This document shows, in pieces, positions 22,788 to 47,885 of a stretch of 64,000 nucleotides of DNA (position 1 is the first letter of the stretch; the number at the start of each line of letters is the position of its first letter). The stretch comes from Mycobacteriaceae bacterium (lineage in GTDB: Bacteria; Actinomycetota; Actinomycetes; Mycobacteriales; Mycobacteriaceae). Below the pieces are notes generated by a model. The model saw only the letters and a list, made by a program, of their open reading frames with translations, had not been told where the DNA came from and made no database searches. Both the position numbers and the translations under genes were made by a program. The stretch lies in NCBI GenBank assembly GCA_019749805.1, contig JAIEPH010000007.1:124001-188000 (forward strand). Direction: 5' to 3'.

Positions 22788-22812
22788 GTTTCCGTCGGCG
22801 AAGGCAGGGTAT
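22788..22812 (+). promoter_or_regulatory. SigF-type promoter GTTT-N15-GGGTAT
   Basis: GTTT (22788-22791) and GGGTAT (22807-22812) are separated by 15 bases, matching the reported mycobacterial SigF promoter pattern (GTTT, 14-17 bases, GGGTAT). It lies 22 bases before the ATG at 22835, with AGGAGGTGGG between, so transcription would begin just upstream of the ribosome site. This is the closest consensus match of the four such sites found in the window. Confidence 0.6.
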
Positions 22813-22834
22813 CCGTCCCGCAGGAGGTGGGAAG

Positions 22835-23416
22835 ATGCCCGTCTGGAGCTGGTTCTTCATCGCAGCAGGTGTTCTGATCGCGTTGACTTTGCTACTCGCC
22901 GCGGTCTTAGCCGCGACCGGTCGCAGGAGAACGAGGCGATTGAAGCAACATTTCGGTCCGGAGTATGAGCATGCCGTAGAGGATGCCGGAGATCGGCGCG
23001 CCGCCGAGAACGAGCTAGTGGCGCGTGAGCGAAAAAGGAAAAGACTCGAGATCGTCGCGTTGACTCCCGAGGCCCACCGTCGGTATTCGGAGCAGTGGGT
23101 AGAGGTTCAACGCTCGTTCGTTGACGACCCTTCGAGCGCGGTTGGCTACGCGGACCGCCTGGTGACCGAGGTCCTGCGCGAACGCGGTTATCCAATAAGC
23201 GATTTCGACCAGCGCGCATCGGATATCTCGGTCGATCACCCGGGCACGGTCGAACATTATCGTGCCGCGCGCACTTTGCACCTGGCGCAGGAGAAGGCCG
23301 ACATCGGCACCGAAGCGCAGCGCCAGGCCTTCGTTCACTATCGCGCGCTCTTCGAGGAGTTGCTCGGCGCCGATCCCGCAATCGAGAATGACACGCCGAA
23401 GGAGGCGACGGCATGA
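22835..23416 (+). CDS. Membrane-anchored protein of unknown function, paralogous to the next gene
   Basis: A 193-residue protein. Residues 3-28 form one membrane helix (FFIAAGVLIALTLLLAAV), followed by a charged helical region. A domain at about 85-180 contains SEQWVEVQRSFVDDPSSAV, then YADRLVTEVLRERGY, and ends YRALFEELLG. The downstream protein has the same domain. It is not an enzyme I recognise. ATG 22835 has a near-ideal ribosome site (AGGAGG). It overlaps the next gene by four bases and sits behind a SigF-like promoter, suggesting a stationary-phase or envelope-stress role. Confidence 0.8.
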   Translation: MPVWSWFFIAAGVLIALTLLLAAVLAATGRRRTRRLKQHFGPEYEHAVEDAGDRRAAENELVARERKRKRLEIVALTPEAHRRYSEQWVEVQRSFVDDPSSAVGYADRLVTEVLRERGYPISDFDQRASDISVDHPGTVEHYRAARTLHLAQEKADIGTEAQRQAFVHYRALFEELLGADPAIENDTPKEATA

Positions 23417-23940
23417 CTGCCCACGACCAGCGGAACGATGGTGCCCCGATGCGGTCTGCGCAGCCTGAATTCTCGGAACCCGGTAGGGAACCTCTTCCAG
23501 CGCAACGTGTTTCGCCAGCAGTGTGGGATGACACCAGCGTATCCGACGCGCCGACCGGAGCTGCACCCGCACACGACGAGCCATCGGTCGCTCATGAAGA
23601 GGCGTCAAGCGCACCCGCCGAGTCACCTCAACCGGAGACGGTGCCACCGAGTGCTGGAGTTCAGCCGCACTCCGACGAGTTGCTTTTCAATGCAGACGCT
23701 TCCGGATTGCGGTCGCGCTGGGACGACATTCAGGCGGTGTTCGTCGACGACCCTGCCGATTGCGTGCAAAAGGCCGACACCCTGGTGGCCGAGGTTGTCG
23801 AGCAGGTGACGGCGGGATTCTCCGAGGCCCGCTCGCGACTCGAGGCGCAGTGGGCGAAAGGGGAGGAGGCGTCCACCGAAGATCTGCGTCTGGCCCTGCA
23901 GCGGTATCGCGAGTTCTTCCAGCGGTTGCTCGCGGCGTAA
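23413..23940 (+). CDS. Soluble paralogue of the upstream unknown protein
   Basis: A 175-residue protein. The first 85 residues are rich in Pro, Ala, Glu and Ser and probably disordered. Residues 95-175 repeat the domain of the neighbouring gene: LRSRWDDIQAVFVDDPADCV, then KADTLVAEVVEQV, and YREFFQRLLAA at the C-terminus. There is no membrane helix. The pair is translationally coupled (ATGA overlap), which fits a membrane/soluble heteromer. The function is unknown. A strong hairpin follows. Confidence 0.78.
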   Translation: MTAHDQRNDGAPMRSAQPEFSEPGREPLPAQRVSPAVWDDTSVSDAPTGAAPAHDEPSVAHEEASSAPAESPQPETVPPSAGVQPHSDELLFNADASGLRSRWDDIQAVFVDDPADCVQKADTLVAEVVEQVTAGFSEARSRLEAQWAKGEEASTEDLRLALQRYREFFQRLLAA

Positions 23941-23949
23941 CCGTAGCGA

Positions 23950-23982
23950 CTGGCCCGCCGTCCGTGAGGGACGGCGGGCCAG
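23950..23982 (+). terminator. 14-bp stem-loop terminator
   Basis: A perfect 14-base stem starting CTGGCCCGCCGTCC with a 5-base loop (GTGAG) lies ten bases after the stop of the unknown pair and 18 bases before the convergent csbD-like stop. There is no T run. It probably terminates both genes, as hairpin-only terminators commonly do in mycobacteria. Confidence 0.7.
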
Positions 23983-23999
23983 CCACGGTTTGAAGTCGG

Positions 24000-24173
24000 T
24001 TAGTTCTTGAACGCGTCCTTGACCTTCTCGCCGGCGTCCTTGAGGCTCGACTTGGCCTGATCGACCTTGCCCTCGTTCTCGGTGCTGCTGTCGCCGGTCA
24101 CCTTCCCCAGGGTCTCCTTGGCCTTGCCACCCGCGTTGTCGATCTTGTTGCTTGCCTTGTCTCCTGCGCCCAT
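24000..24173 (-). CDS. CsbD-like small stress protein
   Basis: A 57-residue, lysine- and aspartate-rich protein beginning MGAGDKASNKIDNAGGKAKE, with DQAKSSLKDAGEKVKDAF near its end. This is the CsbD pattern of small, soluble general-stress proteins. ATG 24173 follows GAAGGAAG. CsbD proteins are typical targets of alternative stress sigma factors, and a SigF-like promoter lies 52 bases upstream. Function beyond stress induction is unknown for the family. Confidence 0.85.
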   Translation of the reverse strand: MGAGDKASNKIDNAGGKAKETLGKVTGDSSTENEGKVDQAKSSLKDAGEKVKDAFKN

Positions 24174-24224
24174 GACGTCTTCCTTCGCTTATTCACAACG
24201 GCCCGGATGAGCCTTGACGGTGGG

Positions 24225-24250
24225 ATACCGCTAATCGAGTCATCTGAAAC
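24225..24250 (-). promoter_or_regulatory. SigF-type promoter upstream of the csbD-like gene
   Basis: On the minus strand GTTT (24250-24247) is followed after 16 bases by CGGTAT (24230-24225), one base from the GGGTAT consensus. It lies 52 bases before the csbD ATG. Spacing is identical to that of the sigF promoter at 47.9 kb. The region between 24250 and the next gene stop at 24392 holds nothing I recognise. Confidence 0.5.
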
Positions 24251-24391
24251 GTTTCGTCATGATCGGGCGACGCGAGGAGTCCGGTCCGGGTGCTCAGCGC
24301 CTCGGAGGGACGCCGAGCGCCAACACGGCTGTGTCGTCCTCGACGCCTGCACCCCGGCGTTCGACGCCGGTCTCGAATTTCATCGGCCGGG

Positions 24392-24673
24392 CTAGCGTCG
24401 AACAGGCAGCAAGGCCAACGGAAGTCGGAGGGCCCGCCGCGGCTGCCAACCCATTCGACCAAACCTCGAGCTGAAGGTGCGACCGGCTAGGTGGGTGATG
24501 TCGCGCCAGTTGCGGCGGACGATCACACCTGCGGTGAATCCGCACAAGAAGCCGACGGTGAAGTACCGACGCGCCCGCTGCTTCTTCCGCCGCGCTATCG
24601 CCGATGCGGTATGGCCGCATACAGCGGCGATGGCGGCGATCGCCACCAACAGAAAGATGACCTGCGGCACCAT
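24392..24673 (-). CDS. Small membrane protein, unknown function
   Basis: A 93-residue basic protein with a hydrophobic N-terminus (FLLVAIAAIAAVCG) and a second short hydrophobic segment (FTVGFLCGFTAGVIV), separated by RRKKQRARR. The C-terminal 35 residues are basic and low in pattern. ATG 24673 has GGAGG four bases upstream, which is the main reason to accept it. I do not recognise a family. It lies upstream of, and in line with, the csbD-like gene. Confidence 0.55.
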   Translation of the reverse strand: MVPQVIFLLVAIAAIAAVCGHTASAIARRKKQRARRYFTVGFLCGFTAGVIVRRNWRDITHLAGRTFSSRFGRMGWQPRRALRLPLALLPVRR

Positions 24674-24781
24674 GTGACCTCCGGGCCGTTCGTCAATGCA
24701 GGCCGCTCAGGCGATCCAATCACTGCCGGCCCGATAAGAGGATCCTCGGTCTCCATTCGTGACCAAAGCGAGGACGAACTG

Positions 24782-25354
24782 TTAGATCGCCAGCCCCGCA
24801 ATGATCAGCCGTGTGGTGGCCTCGGCCCGCTTTCGCCCATACCCGCGCCCCTCGGACAGAATCGGATAGACAACGGCCCCCACGATCGCGTCTGCCGCCG
24901 ATGCGGCGGTGGCCTCGTCGACGGCATCTGCGAGCAGTCGCCTACGAACACTGTCCAGTAGAGGTGCGCTGAATCCTGCACGCAGCTTGATCGCCGTGTC
25001 CTCGTGCTCCATGCAGGCCACCGTGAGGATGCGCAACATCGCCGATCCGCGCTCGGTGGTCAGCGTCGCGGCCAGCCTGCCCGCCCACCGCACCAGGTCG
25101 TCGACGAGATCATCGGTGTGCTTCACCGCGGCGATGATCTTGTCCGCATCGGCGAGCAAAACGTCGGCTACCAGGGCGGGACGGGTGGGCCACCAACGGT
25201 AGATGGTCTGCTTACCGACGCCTGCGCGGGCGGCCACGGCCTCGATGCTCGTCCCGTCGAAGCCGCGCTCGAGCAGCAACTCACGGGTTGCGGTGACGAT
25301 CGCGACGCGCGACTTCTCGCTGCGGCGGCGCGGAGCTGTGACTTGGCGGACCAT
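24782..25354 (-). CDS. TetR-family regulator of the fadE/ltp cluster
   Basis: A 190-residue regulator. The HTH covers about 15-60 ([20 protein letters not shown]), with an AcrR/TetR_C_11-like ligand domain. ATG 25354 is favoured because GAGG lies eight bases upstream; ATG 25363 is also possible. It is divergent from the acyl-CoA dehydrogenase gene, with a compound palindrome in the 93-base gap. By position it should repress the rightward fadE-thiolase-DUF35 operon and itself. Confidence 0.88.
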
Positions 25355-25401
25355 GTGGCGCATCCTCGGTTGCCGGTGCGTCGGACAACCCGTAGTGTGC
25401 C

Positions 25402-25425
25402 ACAAGACGAGACGGTCCGTCTTGT
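25402..25425. promoter_or_regulatory. Nested palindrome, candidate TetR operator for the fadE operon
   Basis: ACAAGACG (25402-25409) pairs with CGTCTTGT (25418-25425), and within this AGACGG-T-CCGTCT (25410-25422) is itself a 13-base palindrome. The two overlap, giving a dense binding region 23 bases before the FadE GTG and 48 bases before the TetR ATG. AGACGG-type inverted repeats are familiar TetR operators in actinobacteria; the assignment here is by position. Confidence 0.6.
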
Positions 25426-25447
25426 CAAGAACGAAAGGCGGCGCGAC

Positions 25448-27673
25448 GTGCCGATCGGGCTCACCCCGGAGCAGCGGCAATTGGACGAGGCGGTCGGCCG
25501 CTTCGCGGCACGGCATGCCGCCGTGGACCAGACCCGCGGCTCGTTCGACGAGATTGCTGAAGGAACGCTGCCCAAGTGGTGGGACGACCTTGTTGCACAA
25601 GGCTTTCACGCGGTACACCTCCCCGAATCGTTTGGCGGACAGGGCGGTTCGCTGGCGGATGCGGCTTGCGTCATCGAGGCCGCGGCGACCGCGCTGTTAC
25701 CGGGGCCACTGCTGCCGACAGTGATCGCCGGCGCCATCGCGCTTTCGGCCGACAAGGTGCCCGCAGCGAACAGGCTGTTGAGCGATCTCGCCGCTGGGGT
25801 TGCCGCCACCGTCGTGCTGCCGGAGTCCGGCGACTTGCGCGCGAACGTTGTCGACGGCGCATGGCGCGTGACCGGATCGTCGGGCGACGTGCTCGGGCTG
25901 TGCTCGGCCGGGGCGATCCTGGTGGCCGCCCGGCGTGGCGATGGCGAGACACTGTGGTGCCTCGTCGATCCGGCTGCCGCTGCGGTGTCGGTGCACGCGC
26001 GTGGCGGGACCGACCTCACCATCGACATCGGCATTCTGCACCTTGATGACCTCGACGTGCCGGATGCGCTGGTGCTGAAAGGCATCGACGACGACGCGGC
26101 ATGGGATATCGCCGCCGCGCTATCGGCTTGCGCCTCAGCCGGAACGTTGCAGTGGGCGCTCGATGCGGTGACCGAGCACTTGCGGACCCGGGAACAGTTC
26201 GGCAAGCCCATCGGAACCTTTCAGGCGCTTCAGCACGAAGCGGCGATGCTGCTCGTCAACAGCGAATTGGCCGCGGCGGCAGCGTGGGACGCGGTGCGCG
26301 CCGTGGACGAAGCGCCGGAGCAACGGCAACTGGCGGCCGCCGGCGCCGCCATCATGGCGGTCGCGCCTGCTCCCGAGCTGCTGCTCGACGCGTTGACGAT
26401 GTTCGGCGCGATCGGGTTCACCTGGGAGCACGACGTGCACCTGCATTGGCGACGCGCCACCAGTCTGGCCGCCTCGATGGGGCCGATCACCGGTTGGTCG
26501 CGTCGCCTCGGCGAACTGAGCCGGACGCATGTTCGCGACATGTCGGTGAAGCTCGGCGACGGCGAAGCGGAATTCCGCGCCAGGATTGCCGACGTGCTGG
26601 ACCGGGCGCTCGAACTGCGTAACGACAAGCCTAGCCCGCTTGGGGACTACGACCACCTGGCCAGCGGGCCCCAGCGCACGCTGATCGCCGACTCCGGTTT
26701 GATGGCGCCGCATTGGCGACCACCGTGGGGCGTGGGTGCGACGCCCCTGCAGCAGCTGATCATCGACGATGAATTCGCCAAGCGGTCCGATCTGGTACGG
26801 CCGTCGCTCAACATCGCCGAGTGGATCCTGCCGTCGATCATCAGCTCGGGATCGGAAGAACTTCAGCAGCAACTGATTCCGCCGACGCAGCGCGGTGAGT
26901 TGCTCTGGTGCCAGCTGTTCAGTGAACCCGGTGCCGGATCCGACCTCGCGGCACTGAGTACGCGTGCAGTGAAGGTCGACGGCGGTTGGCGCATCAACGG
27001 CCACAAGATCTGGACGTCGTCGGCGCAGTACGCCGATTACGGTGCACTGCTGGCGAGAACGGACTTAGATGCCCCGAAGCACAAGGGCATCGGCTACTTC
27101 ATCATCGACATGCGTGCCGAGGGTGTGGAAATCCAGCCGATCAAGACGGCGGACCGTGACCGGCATTTCAACGAGGTGTTCCTCGCCGATGTTTTCGTAC
27201 CCGACGAAATGTTGCTCGGGGGACCGACCGACGGATGGAGTCTTGCGATCTCCACGATGGCCCAAGAACGGGTCGCAATCGGCGCGTACGTGCACATCGA
27301 CCGCGCGGGTGCCCTGCGGCATCTCGCCGGCGAGGCCGGGCCCGATCAGGACACGGTGATCCGCGCGCTGGGCGAACTGGACGCCTACAGCAACGCGATC
27401 AAGGCGCTCGGTGTGCGCGAGACGATTCGGCTGCTCGACGGACAGAGCGCCGGACCCGCGTCGAGTATCGCCAAGGTGGCCACCAGCGTCATGCTGCGCC
27501 GCACCTTCAAGGCCACCCTCGAGTTGGCGGGACCCCTTGCGGTGGTCGAACGGTCGGAACCCCCGATCGTCGCACCGTACCTGCGGCTGCCCGCCGAACT
27601 GATAGGCGGCGGCACGCGCCAGATTCAGCTCAACATCATCGCGCAGATGATCATGGGTCTGCCCCGCAAGTGA
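25448..27673 (+). CDS. Fused double acyl-CoA dehydrogenase (FadE34/FadE6-like)
   Basis: A 741-residue protein made of two acyl-CoA dehydrogenase units. Unit 1 (about 1-350) has the loop [19 protein letters not shown] but a weakly conserved middle domain. Unit 2 (about 370-741) has [26 protein letters not shown] and a C-terminal [18 protein letters not shown], so it is the more canonical half. Single-chain double-unit FadEs in mycobacteria include FadE34, which acts on steroid side-chain CoA esters. GTG 25448 was chosen because it lies just past the operator and has AAAGG upstream. First gene of an operon with a thiolase-like and a DUF35 gene, which fits side-chain or branched acyl-CoA degradation. 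Confidence 0.88.
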
Positions 27674-27696
27674 AAAAACGAGAAACAGGACACAGC

Positions 27697-28905: not shown

Positions 28906-28909
28906 TCAC

Positions 28910-29371
28910 ATGACCGCCTTCGAACGACCGATGCCGGTGAAAACGCCTACCACCGCACCATTCTGGGATGCGCTGTCACAGCACCGCATCCGCATCCAGT
29001 ATTCGCCTTCCACTGACGCTTGGGTTTTCTATCCACGGGTACGCGCCCCGCGCACGTTGGCGCGTGATCTCGAGTGGCGTGAAATTTCGGGGATGGGCAC
29101 GCTGTACTCCTTCACCGTCGCGCGTCGACCCGTCGGACCGCATTTCGCCGATGCCGTACCTCAGCTGCTGGCGATCGTCGAGTGGGACGAGGGGCCACGG
29201 TTTTCCACCGAGATGGTGAACGTGGACCCTGCCGATCTGCGAATCGGTATGCGCGTCAAGCCGGTCTTCTTCGACTATCCCGACCACGACGTCACCATGC
29301 TGCGCTACGAACCGGCGGACAACTCGACACGATCTGCGACAAGACGCGCCATCGCGGGCCCGAGGCAATAG
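28910..29371 (+). CDS. DUF35 OB-fold protein lacking the zinc ribbon cysteines
   Basis: A 153-residue partner protein. The OB-fold half is clear (MGTLYSFTVARRPVGPHF and GMRVKPVFFDY). The N-terminal rubredoxin-like zinc ribbon, normally with four cysteines, has none: the expected CxxC regions read IQYSPSTDAWVFYPRV. The protein contains no cysteine at all. DUF35 proteins form complexes with thiolase-like or hydratase enzymes and shape the active-site channel. ATG 28910, four bases after the Ltp stop. Compare the intact ribbon in the second DUF35 at 56.9 kb. Confidence 0.82.
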   Translation: MTAFERPMPVKTPTTAPFWDALSQHRIRIQYSPSTDAWVFYPRVRAPRTLARDLEWREISGMGTLYSFTVARRPVGPHFADAVPQLLAIVEWDEGPRFSTEMVNVDPADLRIGMRVKPVFFDYPDHDVTMLRYEPADNSTRSATRRAIAGPRQ

Positions 29372-29394
29372 GGTTCTTCAAAACAGGGGATCTG

Positions 29395-30129: not shown

Positions 30130-30150
30130 GCCCCACCCGCCGGGTCAGAC
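30124..30150. terminator. Hairpin across convergent stop codons
   Basis: GTCTGA (30124-30129) and TCAGAC (30145-30150) form a stem extended by CCC/GGG with one bulged base. The arms contain the stop codons of the membrane-protein gene and of phoU. It is probably a bidirectional terminator. Confidence 0.55.
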
Positions 30151-30789: not shown

Positions 30790-30892
30790 GCTCCGAGTTT
30801 AGGGGCAAAGAGCCCGGTAGAGGGTCTTCGCCTCGCCCGACGACGACGTAATATGTGTGTCGGGACTCGCTCACTAATGCGATGATTTGACG

Positions 30893-31570
30893 ATGTACGA
30901 CCCCCGCGTGTCGGCCCGCGGTGAGCGATCGGCGTTGGTGTCGCCGGACTTGCACGTCGGCAGCTTCCGCTTTTGGTTCGTCGGGCAGTCGTGGGAATGG
31001 TCCGACGAGGTCGCCCGGATGCATGGCTATCAACCCGGCGAGGTCGTGCCCACGACCGAATTGCTGCTTTCCCATAAGCATCCCGACGACCGTCAGCACG
31101 TCCAGGATGCGCTGGACCATGCCCTGCTCTCCCGAGGGGCGCTCTCCAGCCGTCACCGCTTCATCGACACCGGCGGCCGGGTCCACACCGTCATCGTGCT
31201 CGCCGACCGGATGCTCGACGACGAGGGCGCAGTCCTGGGAACCGAGGGCTACTACGTCGACTTGACCGACACGTTCGACCAGACGCGGCGCCAAGCCCTC
31301 GACGCTTCACTTCCCGAACTGTTGGAGTCACGCGCGGCGATCGAGCAGGCTAAAGGCGCCCTCATGTTGGTCTATCGCATCGACGCCAACGCAGCGTTCG
31401 AGCTTTTGCTCTGGCGTTCGCAACACACCAACACCAAACTGCGCGCGCTGGCAACACAGATAGTCGCCGAGCTCGCTACCCTCGACTTCGAACCCGACGA
31501 TCTGCGGCGGTCGTTCGATCACCTGCTGCTCACCGCGCACCAACGCATCGATCGCAACGGCAACGCATGA
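30893..31570 (+). CDS. PAS-ANTAR regulator
   Basis: A 225-residue protein. Residues about 20-135 form a PAS_3-type sensor (FWFVGQSWEWSDEVARMHGY). Residues about 150-215 form an ANTAR RNA-binding domain (IEQAKGALMLVYRIDANAAF, then the second helix pair). ANTAR domains bind paired RNA stem-loops to prevent transcription termination. ATG 30893; a TTG six bases earlier is possible. It heads a cluster with two STAS proteins and a hybrid kinase-phosphatase. A weak SigF-like element (GTTT 30797, CGGTAG 30815) lies in the gap with phoU. Confidence 0.85.
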   Translation: MYDPRVSARGERSALVSPDLHVGSFRFWFVGQSWEWSDEVARMHGYQPGEVVPTTELLLSHKHPDDRQHVQDALDHALLSRGALSSRHRFIDTGGRVHTVIVLADRMLDDEGAVLGTEGYYVDLTDTFDQTRRQALDASLPELLESRAAIEQAKGALMLVYRIDANAAFELLLWRSQHTNTKLRALATQIVAELATLDFEPDDLRRSFDHLLLTAHQRIDRNGNA

Positions 31571-31572
31571 GC

Positions 31573-31598
31573 GTGTGCGCCAGCAGCAAATTGGGTAC
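31573..31598 (+). promoter_or_regulatory. SigF-like promoter before the STAS/hybrid-kinase genes
   Basis: GTGT (31573-31576), 16 bases, then GGGTAC (31593-31598). The -10 side reads AATTGGGTAC, the same as at the sigF promoter (47859-47885), and the spacer length is identical; the -35 has one change (GTGT for GTTT). It lies 39 bases before the first STAS gene. Confidence 0.45.
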
Positions 31599-31636: not shown

Positions 31637-31990
31637 GTGGCGCTACTGGACGTGAATCAGGATGTTCGCGACGCCGCTGTCGTGGTAACGGCAGTGGGCG
31701 ATGTTGATTCGGCGAGTTTCACCCACCTGGAGTTCCATCTCGATACCGCCCTGAAGAGGGCTCTCGATCACCCGGCCTTGCTGCTGGTCATCGACCTTTC
31801 GGGTGTCACGCATTTCGGCAGCGCAGGGCTCAACGCCCTCCTCGAATGCCACGAGCAGGGACAGGCCCTGGGTGTCGCCGTCCACATATCCGCTGCCAAC
31901 TCAGAGGTGCTGCGTCCGATCCAGATCACCAAGCTCGACGCGATCCTGCGGGTCTATCCGAGTATCCCCGCGGCACTCGATGGACATTGA
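31637..31990 (+). CDS. STAS-domain anti-sigma-factor antagonist
   Basis: A 117-residue single STAS domain of the SpoIIAA/RsbV type. The switch serine is S62 in DLSGVTHFGSAGLNALLE (two residues after the phenylalanine). In such systems an RsbW-type kinase phosphorylates this serine, a PP2C phosphatase removes it, and the unmodified form sequesters the anti-sigma factor. GTG 31637. It overlaps the start of the large hybrid protein, so stoichiometric co-expression is likely. Confidence 0.88.
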   Translation: MALLDVNQDVRDAAVVVTAVGDVDSASFTHLEFHLDTALKRALDHPALLLVIDLSGVTHFGSAGLNALLECHEQGQALGVAVHISAANSEVLRPIQITKLDAILRVYPSIPAALDGH

Positions 31991-34900: not shown

Positions 34901-36140
34901 ACTCGACATCGCCGGCATCGCGCTGCGGCATCCGGGTGGTGTCCTCGTGATGGTGGTCGAACTCCAGGAGCGCCGGCCGTTCACATCGGAGGACCACACG
35001 CTGTTGACGGTGCTGGCCGGGCGCCTCGGACAGGGCCTGCAGCGGGTACACCAACTCGACCAGCAGCGCGAGACCGCATTGGCGCTGCAGCACGCGATCC
35101 TCGGTCCCGCTGTGTCCGGTGGGTTCGCGGTGCGATACCAGCCCGCAACCCGGCCCCTGCATGTCGGCGGCGACTGGTACGACGTCGTCAATCTGGACGA
35201 CGGCCGTGTCGCCCTGATCGTCGGCGACTGCGTCGGCCACGGGCTGGCTGCGGCGACGGTAATGGGTCAGCTCCGAAGCGCATGTCGCGCACTGCTACTC
35301 GAACAATCCAGCCCGTCCGCGGCGCTGACGGCTCTCGACCGGTTCGCCGCACGACTGGAAGGTGCGCGGTGTACGACGGCGTTCTGCGCGGTGCTGAATC
35401 CAGACACCGGAGAGATCGTGTATTCCAGTGCCGGTCACCCACCGCCGATTCTCGTCATGGCCGATCGCAGCACACAGTTGCTCGACGGCGCCGCGGCGAC
35501 TCCGCTCGGATTGCGATACGACCACTCACGACCCGAGGCTCGCGCGACCATGCCCGCCCGCTCGACGCTGTTGTTGTACACCGACGGTTTGATCGAGCGT
35601 CGTCGTGAATCACTGGACTTGGGGATTCGCCGTGCCACCGATCTCGTCAAAGACAATCGGGACACCGCGCTCGAGGGCCTCGCCGACGAGATCATGTCGC
35701 GCCTAACGCCCGGCGACGGCTACCAGGACGATGTCGCCGTTCTGCTGTACCGGCAGCCCGCGTCACTCGAAATCGACATCGCCGCGGACGTGGCCGAGCT
35801 TGCGTCGACTCGCGCCACGCTGCGCAGCTGGCTGCTCCGTGCCGGCCTGGATGCCGAAAAGACGTTGGATGTGCTCATCGCGGTGGGCGAAGCGGTTGCC
35901 AATTCGATCGAGCACGGACACCGTGAGCACCGCGATGGCGCGGTCCGTCTGCGCGCGACGGCTTTGGCGGACCGATTGCACCTGACGGTCGTCGATACCG
36001 GATCTTGGCGACCACCACAGGCCGACCCGAATTCATTTCGGGGTCGGGGCATCATGCTGATGCGCGCATTGATGCAGGATGTGACCATTGAGCCGAGTGA
36101 TACCGGCACGACGGTTCGCATGCACACGGGGATCGCCTGA
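31980..36140 (+). CDS. Hybrid histidine kinase-receiver-PP2C phosphatase-RsbW-like protein
   Basis: A 1386-residue soluble protein. Rough order: PAS-like sensor (20-165), weak GAF-like region (190-340), HisKA with H361 in [13 protein letters not shown], HATPase (455-575, NLLSNALKF and ADTGIGVG), receiver (635-755, DD639-640, phospho-acceptor D683 in [11 protein letters not shown]), PAS (765-885), GAF (890-1035), SpoIIE/PP2C phosphatase (1045-1265; GGDWYD with D1065/D1068, GDCVGHG with D1083), and an RsbW-type HATPase (1270-1386; E1304 and N1308 in [11 protein letters not shown]). The phosphatase-RsbW half resembles M. tuberculosis Rv1364c; the kinase-receiver front half does not. The start is ATG 31980 or 31992. 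STAS genes overlap it on both sides. All catalytic residues look intact. Confidence 0.88.
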
Positions 36141-36445
36141 TGGGCACCCCACTTTCTGTCCGTACCAGTCTTGACGACGGCACCGCGGTGCTGAGTGTGG
36201 CCGGCGAAATCGACATGAGCAATGTTGGCATGTTCACGACCGCGATCGCCGACGCGATGGTCCCGGCTTCGCACGACGGCGGTGTCTTGACGATCGACCT
36301 GACCCGCGTCGAGTACTTGGACAGCGCCGCCATCGGCGCGTTGTTCGATCAGGCCGATCGCATCCGGCTGATCGTCAACCCGATGCTGATGCCGGTCCTC
36401 AGGGTCAGTGGTCTAACCAGCGTGACTTCGGTGGTAGCTCCATAG
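36140..36445 (+). CDS. Second STAS-domain anti-sigma-factor antagonist
   Basis: A 101-residue STAS protein with the switch serine S62 in VEYLDSAAIGALFDQAD. ATG 36140 overlaps the hybrid protein's stop (TGATG), so it is coupled to it. In Rv1364c the STAS domain is fused at exactly this point after the RsbW domain; here it is a free subunit. Two non-identical antagonists around one phosphatase/kinase give room for competing inputs. Confidence 0.87.
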   Translation: MGTPLSVRTSLDDGTAVLSVAGEIDMSNVGMFTTAIADAMVPASHDGGVLTIDLTRVEYLDSAAIGALFDQADRIRLIVNPMLMPVLRVSGLTSVTSVVAP

Positions 36446-39484: not shown

Positions 39485-39493
39485 CGGGGGCTC

Positions 39494-40366: not shown

Positions 40367-40491
40367 CCTGTTTTCTTAACGTGGATCCGCCCGCGCCGCG
40401 TCGACATCGGGGAAACCCGTCACTCGAGGTAGCGGCGTCGCACCCCTCTCATTTGCCGAGCCGTGGAGTTTCTGAAGCTCTGACGTACCCG

Positions 40492-40507: not shown

Positions 40508-40549
40508 GCGATCGCCACAGAGTCCTCCCAACAAAGTGAGGAGGAGACG

Positions 40550-41470: not shown

Positions 41471-41480
41471 CACAGAGCCT

Positions 41481-41496
41481 TTAAGAACTCTCCAAG
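41481..41496 (+). promoter_or_regulatory. TTAAGAA-N3-TCCAAG motif, copy 2
   Basis: TTAAGAA-CTC-TCCAAG lies 59 bases before ATG 41555. It is identical to copy 1 at all 13 non-spacer positions. See copy 1 at 40492. Confidence 0.4.
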
Positions 41497-41554
41497 CCCC
41501 GACCCGCACATTGCTATCTAACAGTTGACAGCCCAACGAACCGAAGGAGTGGAA

Positions 41555-43333
41555 ATGGCCGTCGAGTCAGTGCACGTAAACACGGTTTACCCCCATTCCG
41601 ACACCCGCTACGAGTGGGTGGAGGCGACCGTCGGCTTCGCCGTTGACCCCGAGTTTTTGGCGAACGAGCGCATTGTCGACCTCGACCTCGCTCCTCGCGA
41701 CCCCGACGGGCTGGTGCGCTTCGACGCTGACCTGAAACTTCTGCGCCCAGTCGAAGGTGGCAACGGCAAGCTTCTTTTCGTCGTACCCAACCGCGGCGTA
41801 CCCACCCTTGCGCCGTGGCTGAAAAACGGCTTCCTGCTGGATCGCGGCTACACCATCGCGTCGTGCGGCTGGCAGTGGGACACCCAGCGCGGGTCCGGCA
41901 TCCTTGGAATATCCGCTCCGCAGGCTGACGTGCCGCCGGGATTCATGCGGCTGGAATGGCGATCCGACAGTGCAAGCGTGGATCATCCGCTCAGCTTCAC
42001 CGTGCCCGAGATCGACGCGCTGCCCGCTGGCGCCGAGGCAATGTTCACGTTCACCGACTATCCGACGGTCGATGTCGACGACCCCGACGCCGTTCTGAGT
42101 GTTCGCACCTCACCGGATGCCGAGCCGACCATCATCCCTAGGGAGAGCTGGCGATTCACCGATGAGACGCATCTGACTCTCGATGGTGGTTTCAAGTCGT
42201 TCCACTGGTACGAGTTGGTGTACCGGACGTCGCGGGCGCCGGTGGCCGGCGCCGGCCTACTGGCCATCCGCGACATCGTGTCGCACCTGCGAGGCGACGG
42301 CCTGATTGCCGGCATCGAGCACGCGTTCGCCTACGGCGTATCGCAGGCCGGCCGGCTCCTTCGGCAGTTCATTTCGGACGGGCTGAATGTCGATGAGGCG
42401 GGCATGATCGTCTTCGACGGCGTATTCAGCGAGTCCGCGAGCGCGGCAACGGGAGAGTTCAACCACCGGTACGCGCAGCCGTCCGTGGCTCAGGTCAACG
42501 GCTTCGGGAACATGGCACCGTTCGCGGCGAGCGAATTGCTGGCGCGTCAGCGCGAACTGGGCGGAGTGCCGAAGACGATCTTCACCAACAGTGCGACTGA
42601 ATACTGGACCAGCGGGGGTGCGCTGCTGCACGTCGATCCGATCACCGGCGTGGATCTGCCCGAGGATCCCGATGTCCGCACCTACCTGCTGGCCAGCACC
42701 GACCATTTCGGCAGCAGCAAGCTCAAGGAGGCGCTGCCGGTCGCTAACCCGGTGCATCGCCTGGATGTCACGCCGGTCAACCGGGCGCTGCTCGTCGCGC
42801 TCGAGGACTGGGTCTGCGAGGGTGTCGAGCCTCCGCGCAGCAAGGTGCCGCGGACCAGTGACGGCACTGCTGTCGCGCGCAAAGAGGTCCTGTCGGTCTT
42901 CAGCCACACCACCGGCCCGGACCCGTCGGCGCTACCGCACGCGCGGTACATCGACCTCGGTCCTGATGCCGATCGCGGGATCGGTCGCTGGCCGGTCAAG
43001 CTGGGCGAGCCGTACGTCGACCTGGTGTCGGCGGTCGACGCGGACGGCAACGAGGTCGCGGGCATCCGCTTGCCTGCCGTCGCCGCACCACTCGCCTCAT
43101 ACACGGGCTGGAATCCCCGTCGTCACATCGATGAGTTGCCCGATGTGCTCTACGAGCGGGTGGGCAGTAAGTTGGCGTTCCCTCCGGGCCGGCCGTCGGT
43201 CACCGAACGGTATCCGTCCCGCGAGGACTACGTCGTCGCAGCCCGCACTGCTGCGGAATCGCTTGTTGCCGAGCGGTTCCTGCTCGCCGACGAGGTCGAG
43301 GCCATCGTCCAGAAGGCCGCAGCCGACTACTGA
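41555..43333 (+). CDS. Alpha/beta-hydrolase-domain protein (Abhydrolase_10 type)
   Basis: A 592-residue protein of the large alpha/beta hydrolase domain family found in actinobacteria, with phrases FAYGVSQAGRLLRQF (possible Ser nucleophile in GVSQAG) and a beta-rich N-terminal half containing LLFVVPNRG. There is no signal peptide, so it is cytoplasmic. ATG 41555 has AAGGAG seven bases upstream; an earlier TTG at 41525 is in frame but unsupported. Members occur in ketone, terpene and alkane degradation clusters, but the reaction is not established. A strong hairpin follows 24 bases after the stop. Confidence 0.78.
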   Translation: MAVESVHVNTVYPHSDTRYEWVEATVGFAVDPEFLANERIVDLDLAPRDPDGLVRFDADLKLLRPVEGGNGKLLFVVPNRGVPTLAPWLKNGFLLDRGYTIASCGWQWDTQRGSGILGISAPQADVPPGFMRLEWRSDSASVDHPLSFTVPEIDALPAGAEAMFTFTDYPTVDVDDPDAVLSVRTSPDAEPTIIPRESWRFTDETHLTLDGGFKSFHWYELVYRTSRAPVAGAGLLAIRDIVSHLRGDGLIAGIEHAFAYGVSQAGRLLRQFISDGLNVDEAGMIVFDGVFSESASAATGEFNHRYAQPSVAQVNGFGNMAPFAASELLARQRELGGVPKTIFTNSATEYWTSGGALLHVDPITGVDLPEDPDVRTYLLASTDHFGSSKLKEALPVANPVHRLDVTPVNRALLVALEDWVCEGVEPPRSKVPRTSDGTAVARKEVLSVFSHTTGPDPSALPHARYIDLGPDADRGIGRWPVKLGEPYVDLVSAVDADGNEVAGIRLPAVAAPLASYTGWNPRRHIDELPDVLYERVGSKLAFPPGRPSVTERYPSREDYVVAARTAAESLVAERFLLADEVEAIVQKAAADY

Positions 43334-43357
43334 CGGGCTTCATACACGCTTCACTCT

Positions 43358-43395
43358 GCACAGCGGCCGGGCGGCTCAGCCCCCGGCCGCTGTGC
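43358..43395 (+). terminator. 14-bp GC stem-loop terminator
   Basis: GCACAGCGGCCGGG (43358-43371) pairs perfectly with CCCGGCCGCTGTGC (43382-43395) around a 10-base loop, just after the hydrolase stop. It lacks a T tract beyond GCTTT. Confidence 0.75.
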
Positions 43396-43457
43396 GCTTT
43401 GGTGGCGTAGGTCGGCGGCGAGCACTCGCCACCCTCGTGGCGGGGGTAGGGCAGGGC

Positions 43458-43630
43458 CGAGTGTGGGGTTGTGGCACGCCTGGGGCGGTGTGGCGTGCGT
43501 TGAGTCCACAGTCGGCGGGTGGGTGGGTCGATGTGATGGCCGGCGACTGCATGCTTTTGGGTGGGTGTGTCGAGTGTGGGGTTGGGGCACGTCTGGGGCG
43601 CTTTGGCGTGCGTTGAGTCCACAGTCGGCG
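43458..43630. repeat. 60-base direct repeat, two copies 113 bases apart
   Basis: Positions 43458-43517 and 43571-43630 agree at 56 of 60 bases, both beginning CGAGTGTGGGGTTG and ending GAGTCCACAGTCGGCG. A similar GGGTGGGT-rich spacer separates them. The whole 43396-43668 interval is G-rich on the plus strand and contains no gene I can support; open frames here have highly biased, repetitive translations. This is either a minisatellite-like duplication or a dispersed intergenic element. Confidence 0.7.
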
Positions 43631-43668
43631 CGCGGGAGTCCACCCCTGGCTCGGTGTTGCGTGCATTA

Positions 43669-43698
43669 ACCCCGCACCCGAGGGGACGAGTGCGGGGT
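43669..43698 (-). terminator. Hairpin downstream of the mmpL-FHA gene
   Basis: ACCCCGCAC (43669-43677) and GTGCGGGGT (43690-43698) form a perfect 9-base stem with a 12-base loop, 17 bases after the stop of the leftward MmpL-FHA gene. Confidence 0.6.
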
Positions 43699-43715
43699 AG
43701 GTCAGGCGTCGCGTT

Positions 43716-46700
43716 CTAGACCGACATGGCGGGCACGCGAGCCTGCTCGCGCTGCTCTTGCGGCCTGGCCTGCGAATGGACCCGAAATCTCCGACCGCCG
43801 ACGCGCACCGAGGCGCCGTCCCGGAAGGCCGTGGGCCGCCACGGGTCGATCCGCACCCACCCGTCCTGTCCCGGCTCGCGGATGAATACGCCGTTTGTCG
43901 AGTTCCGGTCTACGACAAACAGCTCGCCGTCGATGATCCGAATCTCCATGTGCGCCCGGGACATCAGGCCCGAGCGGTCGTAGACGGACACCGGGCGAAG
44001 GCCCTGCCGTGCCGCGTGCGAGTTGTGCGGATAGCGACCGATGACGCAGTCGTGGTCGATCTCGATTCGGGAGTCGTCATCGAGGACCACGCATCGCACG
44101 GGTCGTGTCGTTTCCGCGGCCTCCGTCGTCCACACCACCGCGCCGTGCCCCGGAACAACGCCGTCGGACATCGAGTAGACAGCGTTTTGGTCAGGGGTGG
44201 GAAGGGCGGGCCGCTTACCCAGTTCGTCGACCGTGACCACCGCGGCGACGCCGGGCGTCCGCACGGTTTGGTGCAGGCAGCGGTTGCGCCCCTCGATCAG
44301 GGTGACACCCGTACCGTCGTCGAGCGCTACCGTGACACCGCCGCACAAGAAGATCTCCAGACCCGATTCGGTGGGCATGACGATGCCAACCTCCGCGAGA
44401 TCGCGACTCCACGTGCCGCTCTGGGCGAGCTGCGAGAACGCGTACGACAACATCGCGGGCTCGCTCCGGCGGACGATCTCGACGAGGTGCGACATCTGCT
44501 GGGCCGCCATCGCCTGTTGCGCCAGCGACTTGCGGTTGGCCACCACGATCACGATGCCGTTCACGTTGGCGACGAGATGCTGACCGGAGATGACCTGGAC
44601 CCGGCGGGCAAGTTCGGCCGGCGTGCGGACTGGAGGCGCCGCATGCATCGAGTTCAGCGACAGAACAGCGGGCCTGGGGACCTCGATCGTCGCCTCTTCC
44701 ACGGCGAAGGACAGCGCCTCGCTGATACCGATGCGGGAGTGTAGCCACCGCAACGGTTTCGGTGCCCACCAGTTGAGTTCGCCTGCCAGACGTAGGAACG
44801 CCGGTACGACGACGCCACGGATGATCGTCGCATCGATCACGACGGCCAGCGCCGTGCCGATACCGAACATCTTCATGAACGACATCCCGTTGGCGAACGA
44901 GATCAGTGTGATGGTCAGCAAAAGTGCTGCGCTGGTGACGATCCGGCCGACCCGGCCAAGTCCGACGACGATGGCCTCGTCGTTCGACATACCCGAGTCT
45001 CGAGCCTCCTTGATGCGGCTCAGCAGGAAGATCTCGTAGTCGACCGAGAGGCTGAACGCGATGGCGCAGAGCAGAACCACCATCGACAAATTCAGTGGCG
45101 CAGGCGTGAATCCGAGCAGTGACGACAGATGCCCGTCCTGGAAGATCCACGTCATGACGCCGAGGACTCCAGACAGCACCAGCAGGTTCAGCAGCAGCGC
45201 CTTCACCGGGACGACGACGCTGCCGGTGAACAGGAACAGCAGGATGAAGGTGAATACCGCGATCAATCCGATCGCCCACGGCAGCCGCTGTGCGATCGCG
45301 GACCGGCTGTCGATCAGCGTGGCCGACGGTCCGCCCACCTCGACCTGCTTGTCGGTGATCTTCGCGCGGATGTCGTGCACGAGGTGTTCTGCCGCTTGGG
45401 AATCCGAGTCGACCGCAAGATATGCCAACACATAGGCCGCGCCATCACTCTCGCTGGGCGGGGCCTCGCCGACGCGCGCGCCGCGCTCGAACTTGCCGAC
45501 GGATCCGTTGACGAGTACCACGTCGGGCATCTGGGAGACGTCGGCGGCAAGCGTTTCCAGCGCGTCGGCGTTGTTCTGCGTCACCAAGGTGATCGCCTGC
45601 GAGGGATCCAGCGGATAGTCCCGCTGTAACGACTCGGCCACCAGACGCGCGTTCGAGTCGGTGGGCAGCGCGCGCTCATCGGGATTGGTGAACTGCACTT
45701 TCAGGAATGGAACCCCGAGCCCGATCAGCACCACGACGACCGGCAAGGCGTAGATGATCGGGCGGCGGATCACCGCCGCGGCGAACCGCCGCCAGAACGC
45801 GGAGTCCGCGGACGGAGGCGTTTTCCGCCGGATGATGGCCAGCGAGTCGATGCGCTTTCCCAGCAGCGACAGCATCGCGGGCAGCACGATTATTGCGCTC
45901 AGCGCCGAGAGCATGACGGTAGCGCTCGCGGCGATGCCGACCGAGCGCAGGAAATACGTGGGGAACACCAGCAGCGACAACATCGCCAGGGTGACCGTCG
46001 CCGCGCTGAAGATGATCGTGCGGCCCGCGGTGGCCACCGTCGCGACGATCGCCGCCTGGTGTTCCTTACCGCTGTCGCGTTCTTCGCGGAATCTCGACAC
46101 CATCAACAGGCCGAAGTCGATGGACAACCCGAGACCGAATGCCGTCGCCACGGTGAGGGCATGCGTCGAGACTTCGGTGACCCGCGTCATGAGCACGAGC
46201 ACGAGCAGCGTCGTGACGATCGACGTGATGCCGACGACGATGGGCAGGAATGCGGCGATGAGCCCCCCGAAAACAATGACGAGCACGGCCATCGAGACCG
46301 GCAGCGCGATACTTTCGCTGACCAAGAGGTCCTTTTTGACTTTGGCTCGGATCTCTTGCTGGACACCAAGCGTGCCGCCGGCGCGCACCGCGACGTCCGG
46401 GTTGGAGGGCAGGTCGGCGACCAGTTGCTTGGCGGTGTCGGCCGCCTCATCCGCGGTTCCGCTGACATGCACCAGCATGAGGCCGGAGCGATTGTCATGG
46501 CTGCGCAGATCGGTGGCCGCGGGGTCGGTGAACGATCGGAGGACCTTTGCCTCGGGCTCAGCTTTGACCAGGTCGTAGACCTGGCCGGCCACGTCGGCGA
46601 CCTCGGGGCTGTCGATGGTGCCTTCCCGCGGTAGCACCTGGATCACCAGGTTCGCGGTGGTGCCGAAGTTCTGATCCATGACCTCGGCGGCGTGAGTCGA

Positions 46701-46943
46701 CTCCGATGATGGGGCGTTGTAGCCGCCCACAGCGAGCTTGTCGGACACGCCGCCGCCGATCACAATGCTGACACCGAGCAGGAGCGCCAGGACTGCGAGG
46801 ACCAGCTTGGGGGAGCGCACGGTGAAGGCGGCCAACCGCGTCAGCGCGCCGCCCTTCGCCGAACTACTCCGCATCATCTTTGCGACCAGCGGACGAAACC
46901 CGACCTCATTCATGACGACAGGGTCCGGCTTGGCCCTTGGCAC
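43716..46943 (-). CDS. MmpL-type RND transporter with C-terminal FHA domain
   Basis: A 1075-residue fusion. Residues about 40-750 are an MmpL/YdfJ-type RND transporter with two six-helix halves; the relay motifs read LSIDFGLLMVSRF in half 1 (Phe after the Asp rather than the usual Tyr) and LSVDYEIFLLSR in half 2. Residues about 770-955 form a cytoplasmic linker domain I do not recognise (GGVTVALDDGTGVTLIEGR). Residues 960-1055 form an FHA domain with G969/R970, SRAH (S995, H998) and NSTNG (1014-1018), the phosphothreonine-binding set. FHA implies control by Ser/Thr kinases. The start is unclear: GTG 46943 lacks a ribosome site and ATG 46913 is possible. A sigma gene lies just upstream. Confidence 0.87.
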   Translation of the reverse strand: MPRAKPDPVVMNEVGFRPLVAKMMRSSSAKGGALTRLAAFTVRSPKLVLAVLALLLGVSIVIGGGVSDKLAVGGYNAPSSESTHAAEVMDQNFGTTANLVIQVLPREGTIDSPEVADVAGQVYDLVKAEPEAKVLRSFTDPAATDLRSHDNRSGLMLVHVSGTADEAADTAKQLVADLPSNPDVAVRAGGTLGVQQEIRAKVKKDLLVSESIALPVSMAVLVIVFGGLIAAFLPIVVGITSIVTTLLVLVLMTRVTEVSTHALTVATAFGLGLSIDFGLLMVSRFREERDSGKEHQAAIVATVATAGRTIIFSAATVTLAMLSLLVFPTYFLRSVGIAASATVMLSALSAIIVLPAMLSLLGKRIDSLAIIRRKTPPSADSAFWRRFAAAVIRRPIIYALPVVVVLIGLGVPFLKVQFTNPDERALPTDSNARLVAESLQRDYPLDPSQAITLVTQNNADALETLAADVSQMPDVVLVNGSVGKFERGARVGEAPPSESDGAAYVLAYLAVDSDSQAAEHLVHDIRAKITDKQVEVGGPSATLIDSRSAIAQRLPWAIGLIAVFTFILLFLFTGSVVVPVKALLLNLLVLSGVLGVMTWIFQDGHLSSLLGFTPAPLNLSMVVLLCAIAFSLSVDYEIFLLSRIKEARDSGMSNDEAIVVGLGRVGRIVTSAALLLTITLISFANGMSFMKMFGIGTALAVVIDATIIRGVVVPAFLRLAGELNWWAPKPLRWLHSRIGISEALSFAVEEATIEVPRPAVLSLNSMHAAPPVRTPAELARRVQVISGQHLVANVNGIVIVVANRKSLAQQAMAAQQMSHLVEIVRRSEPAMLSYAFSQLAQSGTWSRDLAEVGIVMPTESGLEIFLCGGVTVALDDGTGVTLIEGRNRCLHQTVRTPGVAAVVTVDELGKRPALPTPDQNAVYSMSDGVVPGHGAVVWTTEAAETTRPVRCVVLDDDSRIEIDHDCVIGRYPHNSHAARQGLRPVSVYDRSGLMSRAHMEIRIIDGELFVVDRNSTNGVFIREPGQDGWVRIDPWRPTAFRDGASVRVGGRRFRVHSQARPQEQREQARVPAMSV

Positions 46944-46981
46944 TTTCTAAAGGGCGGGCCGCGGCCGGGTATGTGTACTGC

Positions 46982-47788
46982 TCAGGCGGGTACTGCGGCC
47001 CTGCTCGTGGTTACCTCGGCCGGTTCGCGAACCTGGTCACGCAGCGTGGCGAGGGCCTTGGCGATGAGCCGCGATACGTGCATCTGTGAGTAGCCCATGC
47101 GTTCGGCGATCTGCGTCTGGGTCAGGTTGTCGAAGAACCGAAGGCTCAGCACCCGTTGTTCGCGCTCGGGCAGGGCAGCGATCAATGGACGTACGGTCGC
47201 GAGGGCGAGCACCTTGTCGATGTTGGGATCCACCTCGCCGATCGTGTCCCCGATGGGCCGGAAGTCGGTGTCCGGACCGGCCTGCACGTCAGTCGACAGC
47301 GTGGAGTAGTTGCTGCTCGCGATCGTCGCTTCGACCACCGATTCGCGGTCGATGCCGAGGTACCTCGCGATCTCTGTGGCGGTCGGTGCCCGATTGAGGT
47401 CCTGGGACAGCGCGCCGCGGGCCTTCACGATTTGGCCCTGGAGGTCTTTCAGGCGGCGGGGAACCTTGACGGCCCATCCGTAGTCGCGGAAGTGGCGGCG
47501 GACCTCGCCCATCATCGTCGGCACGGCGAAGGCCAGGAAGTCCGCGCCGTTCTCGGGGTCGAATCGGTTGACGGCGTTGACCAGCCCCACCCGTGCGGCC
47601 TGTACCAGGTCGTCGTTCGGCTCGCCGCGATTTCGAAAGCGACGGGCGATGTGATTGGCGATCGGCAGTCCGCGCTCGATGATCTCGTCGCGCCGACGGC
47701 GGTATGCGGCCGAACCTTCATCGAGGGTCGCCAATCGGCGAAACATGTCGGTGAGATCGGCGTACTCGGAAGAAGTGTGTTCAGACAC
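46982..47788 (-). CDS. SigF/SigB-class RNA polymerase sigma factor without adjacent anti-sigma factor
   Basis: A 268-residue group 3 sigma factor. Region 2 is at about 40-110 (NDDLVQAARVGLVNAVNRFD), region 3 in the middle, and the region 4 HTH at about 205-255 (LTQTQIAERMGYSQMHVSRL). This order and length match SigF of mycobacteria and SigB/SigF of Firmicutes. In most mycobacteria sigF follows its anti-sigma gene (rsbW/usfX); none is adjacent here. GTG start. Its own upstream region has a SigF-type promoter, implying autoregulation. It may be a second SigF paralogue rather than the core one. Confidence 0.9.
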   Translation of the reverse strand: MSEHTSSEYADLTDMFRRLATLDEGSAAYRRRRDEIIERGLPIANHIARRFRNRGEPNDDLVQAARVGLVNAVNRFDPENGADFLAFAVPTMMGEVRRHFRDYGWAVKVPRRLKDLQGQIVKARGALSQDLNRAPTATEIARYLGIDRESVVEATIASSNYSTLSTDVQAGPDTDFRPIGDTIGEVDPNIDKVLALATVRPLIAALPEREQRVLSLRFFDNLTQTQIAERMGYSQMHVSRLIAKALATLRDQVREPAEVTTSRAAVPA

Positions 47789-47858
47789 GCGAAGATGCCC
47801 CTATCCGGTTGCCTTGTGATGATGCGGCTCGGATCTGAACCTCTCGTGTGGGAAAAGC

Positions 47859-47885
47859 TGTACCCAATTGCTGGTCTCCCGAAAC
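47859..47885 (-). promoter_or_regulatory. SigF-type promoter of the sigma gene
   Basis: On the minus strand GGTTTC (47885-47880) is followed by GGGTAC (47864-47859), with 16 bases between GTTT and GGGTAC. It lies about 70 bases before the sigma GTG. This is a near-consensus SigF site (GTTT and GGGTAT) and suggests positive autoregulation. Confidence 0.6.

Follow-up and report, generated by a model that had tools for sequence, protein, structure and literature searches.

This analysis concerns an extra sigma factor gene of the SigF, general-stress type, and the leader of its messenger RNA, in a 64,000-nucleotide (nt) stretch of a mycobacterial genome, termed here the window (Mycobacteriaceae bacterium, GenBank GCA_019749805.1, contig JAIEPH010000007.1, positions 124,001 to 188,000; G000:C122:124001-188000 in the numbering used below, where G, C and L designate genomes, contigs and loci). 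The assembly amounts to 6.48 Mb in 125 contigs. The gene is preceded by a SigF-type promoter site and a conserved leader element; some distance away lies a partner-switching module encoding two STAS antagonists and a large hybrid protein, with a PAS-ANTAR gene next to it; and SigF-like sites also precede the first STAS gene, a csbD gene and a gene termed here P22835 (Table 1). The original prediction for this window, made from its letters alone, was that four SigF-type promoters tie a sigma factor lacking an adjacent anti-sigma gene to the remote module in a single feedback circuit. Here that proposal is weighed against comparisons across the genus, family searches and predictions of RNA folding.

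Table 1. Features of the sigma locus, the remote module and the other site-bearing genes (window coordinates)
Feature	Coordinates	Strand	Basis or remark
SigF-type sigma factor gene, 268 residues	46982..47788	-	NCBIfam NF005514, 376.4 bits; paralogue of canonical sigF
SigF-type promoter site, sigma gene	47860..47885	-	GTTT-N16-GGGTAC; GGTTT with 47886 included
Conserved leader element GGTTCAGATCCGAGCC	47826..47841	-	Local hairpin GGUUC/GAGCC, loop AGAUCC
Predicted long-range pairing in the leader	47792..47845	-	GAGA-G-GUUC (47845-47837) with GGGC-A-UCUU (47800-47792)
Putative Shine-Dalgarno stretch GGATAGGGG	47798..47806	-	GTG at 47788 follows 9 nt later; mostly paired in the predictions
PAS-ANTAR protein gene, directly upstream of STAS gene	30887..31570	+	Pfam PF03861, PF08447
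SigF-like site before STAS gene	31573..31598	+	GTGT-N16-GGGTAC
STAS antagonist a (anti-anti-sigma type)	31637..31990	+	Pfam PF01740
Hybrid protein, 1384 residues	31986..36140	+	Pfam; start chosen here from overlap with STAS stop
STAS antagonist b	36140..36445	+	Pfam PF01740
csbD gene, 57 residues	24000..24173	-	Pfam PF05532, E 7.8e-16
SigF-like site before csbD	24225..24250	-	GTTT-N16-CGGTAT
Possible csbD-leader hairpin	24200..24213	-	GGCTC-ATCC-GGGCC, by eye
SigF-type site before P22835	22788..22812	+	GTTT-N15-GGGTAT
P22835, N-terminal hydrophobic stretch	22835..23416	+	No Pfam family above cut-off
P23413, overlaps P22835 stop	23413..23940	+	No Pfam family above cut-off

A second SigF lacking an adjacent anti-sigma gene

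The sigma protein passes the cut-offs of two family models of SigF-type (group 3) sigma factors, namely NF005514 (376.4 bits versus 372) and TIGR02980 (275.6 versus 234.35). Because the genome also has a canonical rsbW-sigF operon, on contig C104--where the RsbW gene overlaps the start of a sigma gene whose product is 60% identical to that of the window--the window gene is a second SigF. As had been claimed, no rsbW-like gene lies beside it, and in this it departs from the canonical rsbW-sigF organization, which L002 of the same genome displays. A third, distant SigF-like gene (46% identity; L003, G000:C115:124494-125228) falls far off in the sigma tree and has neither the leader element nor an rsbW-like gene directly upstream. 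The stretch SQMHVSRL in region 4, which we take to be the recognition helix, is identical between the window sigma factor and canonical SigF.

From a search of 396 genomes of the genus, 76 paralogue genes were fetched, of which 74 have the leader element. Within a tree of 106 sigma rows, the window gene falls inside a clade of 72 paralogues (support 97/92), all 72 of which carry the leader; branching beside this clade are the leader-bearing L203 and L205, the leaderless paralogues L197 and L208, and ten leaderless rows with weaker scores, and the remaining 19 rows of the genus stand apart, with rsbW directly upstream in 19 of 19. Altogether, rsbW is found directly upstream in 1 of the 76 paralogue rows (the leaderless L197) versus 19 of the 30 other sigF rows; many of the fetched loci span only 1.5 kb per side, so that partners farther off would be missed. 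Named relatives of the window sigma protein occur in M. tusciae (97% identity), M. neglectum and M. barrassiae (85%), M. lehmannii (77%), M. novocastrense (76%), M. sphagni (69%), M. parafortuitum (67%) and M. iranicum (63-64%).

A conserved element between promoter and start codon

The stretch from the -10 to the GTG start of the sigma gene contains a new element, which the original prediction had missed. In its strict form (GGTTCAG-N1..9-GAGC) it is present at this place in 65 of the 76 paralogues, and in a loosened form--(A/G)GTTCA(A/G)-N3..6-G(A/G/T)G(C/T)C, devised after variants had been seen--in 74; it occurs in none of the 30 other sigF rows, and 85 of 4368 control windows of 300 nt contain the loosened form, true occurrences included. 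The stem reads GGTTC/GAGCC in 66 of the 74 leaders and all five positions pair in 70, while the loop takes 24 forms of 5 to 8 nt. Where a promoter site was found, the element starts 10 to 20 nt after GGGTA, and it ends up 43 to 93 nt from the start codon (start codons as chosen here); this combination of a steady spacing to GGGTA with a variable distance to the start suggests that the position of the element is tied to the probable 5' end of the mRNA. Ten leaders in which no strict SigF site lies within 55 nt (L172, L040 and others) still carry it.

A model of the element (R1), built from 38 element strings thinned from 57 distinct ones, has the sigma leader as its best match in the whole genome (30.6 bits). 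Rfam 15, searched with positions 47700-47960, returned two matches only, both far below the cut-offs (E 2.2 and 3.6), and the literature, at the level of titles and abstract openings, yielded no description of a leader preceding a sigF paralogue of mycobacteria.

Two further roles for the element find little encouragement. As a regulon-wide motif it fails, inasmuch as GGTTCAGN1-8GAGC occurs in the genome at chance level (46 versus 44) and the next ten matches to R1 lie inside open reading frames (ORFs) of 236 to 1007 codons, with no SigF-like site upstream; because a chance ORF of 290 codons also spans the sigma leader, the ORF argument is weak for the shortest matches. Nor does it resemble an RNA target of the ANTAR type that the neighboring PAS-ANTAR protein might bind: such targets have a second conserved loop base, which is missing in most of the loops, and in G039 and G081, where 35-36 kb was fetched, the leader is kept and no PAS-ANTAR gene was found.

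Tandem pairs of SigF-like genes are seen in L039, L193, L195, L196, L199, L202 and L207; in these pairs the element stands only before the second (i.e., downstream) gene, inside the intergenic spacer.

Predicted alternative pairings of the leader RNA

In the minimum-energy fold of the window leader, the GGUUC arm of the element forms a long helix with the Shine-Dalgarno region; a longer piece folds similarly, and the helix has a predicted pairing probability of 0.82 at 37 C. Among the minimum-energy folds of the 74 leaders, GGUUC is paired beyond the local hairpin in 64, within the local hairpin in 8 and in neither way in 2; its far partner is not the Shine-Dalgarno stretch in every one. In a pairing test without selection by fold, for which the 74 leaders were thinned by similarity to 41, the GGTTC region scores 12.5 for complementarity to the Shine-Dalgarno window, as compared with 10.6 +- 0.4 for windows of 106 other genes and 11.5 +- 0.3 for within-family swaps (0 of 2000 as high in either control). 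For 24 leaders picked from the 74 after the folds had been seen, 92.9% of the cells in the long helix are paired and 17 cells are changed on both sides, these changes (C-G to G-C among them) affecting three of the pairs; the covariation score is 0.314 versus at most 0.111 for slid partners, that is, about threefold higher. Judging from these predicted folds, the leader is likely to be an RNA gate in which two partners compete for one strand.

Warming is not predicted to work this gate in the manner of an RNA thermometer: the modeled exposure of the window's Shine-Dalgarno stretch goes from 0.22 (20 C) to 0.30 (55 C), with no clear opening, and for 13 leaders the predicted gain on warming is at most about 0.2.

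Promoter sites and their conservation

All four SigF-type sites lie where they had been predicted, except that the -10 of the csbD site, CGGTAT, is one base off GGGTAT. The mycobacterial SigF consensus given in the cited section of PMC7693655 is GGWWT-N16-17-GGGTAY, and the sigma-gene site alone fits it in full (GGTTT-N16-GGGTAC); the others are near matches, with a -35 of CGTGT before the STAS gene, a -35 of CGTTT and a -10 of CGGTAT before csbD, and a -35 of CGTTT with a spacer of N15 before P22835. Across the whole genome the loose pattern GTTTN14-18SGGTAY has 73 matches versus 57 for a reversed control, so that loose matches are mostly due to chance; the strict pattern GTTT-N15/16-GGGTA(T/C) has 25 matches in 6.48 Mb (counted by hand), which corresponds to 0.25 expected per 64 kb versus the 2 within the window (Poisson P = 0.026). 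By sequence alone the sites are poor evidence; it is their conservation that carries the case.

For the sigma gene, GTTT-N14-18-GGGTA occurs within 55 nt before the leader element in 64 of 74 family leaders, with widely varying spacers and flanks, as compared with 68 of 23,144 control 55-mers (0.3%), true sites included. (Here, as in the counts for P22835 and csbD, the window's own genome is included.) The P22835 site, TTG(A/T)C-GTTT-N15-GGGTA(T/C), is kept in 25 of 30 loci (the best 30 of 107 genomes with a match), and 23 of these 30 loci come from genomes whose best sigma match, among the matches listed, is weaker than 1e-98. Because it is thus kept without a strong paralogue match, it looks like a general SigF-regulon site, the simplest reader of which in those genomes is canonical SigF. 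TTGAC stands immediately before the site in 26 of the 30 loci, so that a housekeeping -35 may overlap the SigF-type -35. Among the 7 closest csbD genes, GTTT-N16-CGGTA(T/C) stands before 5, the exceptions being G163 (GTTT with AGGTAA) and G170 (CGGTAT without GTTT); of two more distant csbD genes, L200 has GTTT-N14-AGGTAT and L171 has no such site. The STAS-operon site is kept in the close relatives G146, G125 and G341 only: in G011, G040 and G102 GGGTA(T/C) is present and GTTT absent, and the other STAS-operon loci compared have no GTTT-type site at the equivalent place.

A remote partner-switching module

That antagonists, a phosphatase and an RsbW-like kinase lie about 11 kb from the sigma gene is confirmed by Pfam, which finds PF01740 twice, PF13581 (RsbW-type) and PF07228 (PP2C) in the module; the hybrid gene is 10.8 kb away. 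In the hybrid protein, whose domains were read from 31803 onward, the order is GAF-like, HisKA, HATPase, receiver, PAS, GAF-like, SpoIIE/PP2C phosphatase and RsbW-like HATPase_c_2. The PAS-ANTAR gene, left out of the original prediction, is likely part of the module: of 41 fetched loci (some places counted twice), 39 have it no more than 400 nt from the STAS gene, and the two misses are a single place, at a contig end.

The hybrid protein is encoded in 161 of the 396 genomes (at E 1e-250), including 48 of 58 paralogue genomes versus 113 of the 338 others (Fisher P 1.6e-12, descent ignored). The 58 comprise sigma matches down to about E 1.5e-99 among the matches listed; G090 and G342, which carry leaderless copies, are included, and weaker matches, such as G211 and G006 (with the hybrid gene about 4 and 12 kb away), are excluded. 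Among genomes with close sigma orthologues, 18 of 24 (the window's own included) have the hybrid, and six have no match. Within the 48 genomes, again among the matches listed, the hybrid gene is at most 20 kb from the paralogue in 19 and on the same contig in 33. From this co-occurrence and recurrent proximity, the module 11 kb away is likely to be a protein-level brake on the sigma factor.

At one locus (G039; L100 2827-6933) the flanking neighbors are as in the window and the PAS-ANTAR/STAS/hybrid/STAS operon is missing.

Neighboring and other site-bearing genes

The csbD-like gene is indeed a CsbD gene (PF05532). By eye, a 5-bp stem occurs at the equivalent place in the 7 closest csbD leaders, with single-sided compensating changes; the possible hairpin in the window resembles the sigma leader, yet it is unmatched by model R1. 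A search of 392 genomes of the genus located P22835 in 107, the window's own among them, and P23413 shows partial similarity to it (about 30% identity between stretches). In G163 the gene order is P22835, P23413, csbD, sigma, and the same order recurs at the second sigma copy of G277; in G345 csbD lies 1.7 kb ahead of sigma. These neighborhoods tie sigma paralogues to two of the window's site-bearing targets. No relic of a sigma gene was found beside csbD in the window.

About 40 nt behind the sigma gene, on the same strand, is an MmpL-type transporter gene (43716-46943, minus strand), which stays next to sigma in G146, G125, G341, G277, G039 and G081; being close and kept in place, it may be cotranscribed with the sigma gene. 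The C-terminal part of its product presumably resembles an FHA domain. An ORF at 14820-18047 (plus strand) has the same length (1075 residues), and both are MmpL-type by label, the family-library check having covered 43716-46943 only.

A proposed circuit and its alternatives

The gene, its promoter site, the leader element, the conservation of these and the statistical link to the module are established directly. The reading favored here, to which a probability of roughly 45% is given, is that a second SigF without an anti-sigma factor of its own is governed by a SigF-type promoter, by an RNA leader acting over the ribosome-binding site and by the remote module serving as a brake. Transcription of the sigma gene from its SigF-type site, whether due to the paralogue or to canonical SigF, would amplify its production. 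Pairing of the leader's GGUUC with the nearby GAGCC would leave the Shine-Dalgarno stretch free; pairing of GGUUC with the Shine-Dalgarno region would close that stretch and hold translation below its full rate until the balance is shifted. Through its RsbW-type kinase and PP2C phosphatase, the hybrid would determine how far the two STAS proteins are phosphorylated and thereby how far the sigma factor is released, whether by direct binding to it or via canonical RsbW. More speculative, and on present showing doubtful, is the broader notion that these leaders form a new class of regulatory RNA, by which mycobacterial orphan SigF paralogues swapped a cotranscribed anti-sigma gene for a 5' switch whose single strand GGUUC serves either an on-hairpin or a helix that closes the Shine-Dalgarno stretch; translation would then set sigma activity alongside the fused histidine kinase, phosphatase and RsbW-type module encoded nearby.

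The single feedback circuit of the original prediction is partly supported. In its favor are the extra orphan sigma factor, the conserved site of its own type, and the module link through statistics and proximity; on the other side are the generality of the P22835 site, the restriction of the STAS site to the nearest relatives, and the lack of a hybrid match in 6 of the 24 genomes with a close sigma orthologue. A canonical rsbW-sigF locus elsewhere, provided that it accounts fully for regulation, had been named in advance as telling against the circuit; a canonical operon is present in the same genome, so either sigma factor may read the sites. The circuit is supported best for the sigma-gene promoter site, fairly for the module and least for the STAS-operon site.

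Several observations weigh against the reading favored here. As regards the RNA, the within-family swap control leaves the relatedness between leaders in place; the predicted Shine-Dalgarno exposure in the window (0.23) is ordinary when compared with shuffles (0.34 +- 0.13; 21% as low), none of 13 leaders tested has an exposure below 95% of its own shuffles, and in L152 and L171 the predicted exposure is above average. The local hairpin, being invariant in the 24 leaders, gives no covariation signal, and RNAalifold favors it over the long helix; the window's own long helix has one mismatch and a low score (9) in the ungapped test; and a third helix, after GAGCC, is not clearly above shuffles (10.9 versus 10.0 +- 0.34, with L230 mis-parsed). 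As regards the module, 10 of the 58 genomes keep the sigma gene without the hybrid, including G039 and G081 (84-85% identity), in which the whole operon is missing between the same neighbors while sigma, promoter site and leader are kept; 113 genomes with the hybrid have no strong paralogue match among the matches listed; and the co-occurrence counts ignore shared descent. Moreover, the RsbW-like domain of the hybrid has, by eye, intact kinase boxes (EAVAN, DTGSW, GRG), and canonical RsbW lacks the asparagine of the first. In M. smegmatis, according to the cited section of PMC7693655, an RsbW with intact boxes is a kinase and the other type an anti-sigma factor, and the kinase-type RsbW2 does not bind SigF. 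With intact boxes and this precedent, the module more likely sets antagonist phosphorylation, though it may also bind the sigma factor directly.

The same four sites could instead belong to a cascade without feedback, in which canonical SigF would read all of them, the extra sigma factor would be one target that prolongs the response, and the module would act on canonical SigF. The canonical locus, the identity of SQMHVSRL in the two sigma factors, the conservation of the P22835 site where a strong paralogue match is lacking and the 113 hybrid-bearing genomes without such a match are all in keeping with this; it is nonetheless considered somewhat unlikely, given that hybrid and paralogue co-occur and lie near each other and that the paralogue is linked to csbD and P22835 in G163 and G277. 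This nearness might in turn be that of an inherited neighborhood, within one large lipid-transport island, without any functional tie. The island's MmpL and metabolic genes are common to relatives too, G039 and G081 retain sigma without the module between kept neighbors, and 15 of the 19 close pairs come from a single sigma subclade, that of the window (the W/G011 group). Yet proximity recurs in G144 and in G108 and G007, which are elsewhere in the sigma tree, as well as in G235, which is outside the tree's rows; at the G108 locus no other window gene was found among those searched; and within the main subclade the distance stays at 5-13 kb even as gene order varies. A mere shared neighborhood is therefore viewed as unlikely.

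The leader element, for its part, might be a DNA operator just past the start site, bound by a repressor, rather than an RNA structure: GGTTCAGATCCGAGCC is an imperfect inverted repeat, with almost invariant arms, 10-20 nt past GGGTA. However, a dimeric DNA-binding protein would rarely tolerate a loop of 5 to 8 nt with 24 forms; the long-range partner covaries; and ten leaders keep the element without a strict SigF site. An operator thus seems distinctly improbable, and an RNA gate is preferred.

Relation to known systems

In leaders of the E. coli rpoH type, folding of the mRNA sequesters the Shine-Dalgarno sequence and limits translation of the sigma factor. The leader described here differs from these: its predicted fold shows no clear opening from 20 to 55 C, and one strand is contested by a second, conserved hairpin. 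For the module, one counterpart is RsbKY of Bacillus cereus, reportedly treated by de Been et al. in 2011. There too, according to the cited part of PMC10950880, a hybrid histidine kinase acts on a receiver-linked PP2C phosphatase, in a SigB-type system; in the window, by contrast, kinase, phosphatase and RsbW-like domain form one protein, beside a PAS-ANTAR gene. Rv1364c of M. tuberculosis, as outlined in the same source (PMC10950880), resembles the window hybrid in joining PAS, PP2C phosphatase and kinase in one SigF-linked chain, whereas the hybrid adds a hybrid histidine kinase in front and has its STAS domains as separate proteins.

The SigF switching system of M. smegmatis (RsbW1, RsbW2, RsfB, RsfSR), to the extent that the cited portions of PMC7693655 and PMC10950880 cover it, has in common with the window a SigF-type sigma factor, GGWWT-N16-17-GGGTAY promoters, STAS antagonists, a kinase-type RsbW and a receiver-linked PP2C phosphatase. 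It differs in that its SigF is cotranscribed with an anti-sigma factor, whereas the window sigma gene has none beside it, and in that a single 1384-residue protein of the window combines histidine kinase, receiver, phosphatase and RsbW-type domains. Extra sigF copies are likewise found in the M. mucogenicum clade (three copies, sigF3 being the one with rsbW; PMC6917791), for which the cited part of that report describes no promoter, leader RNA or module of the sort seen here.

If the reading favored here is true, then in SigF paralogues with a conserved leader and no anti-sigma partner, control would have shifted to the level of the mRNA and to a module encoded at a distance. SigF has been understood as being controlled post-translationally, by an anti-sigma factor from the same mRNA. 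The question thereby raised is how a possibly self-activating sigma factor is silenced without a cotranscribed anti-sigma factor.

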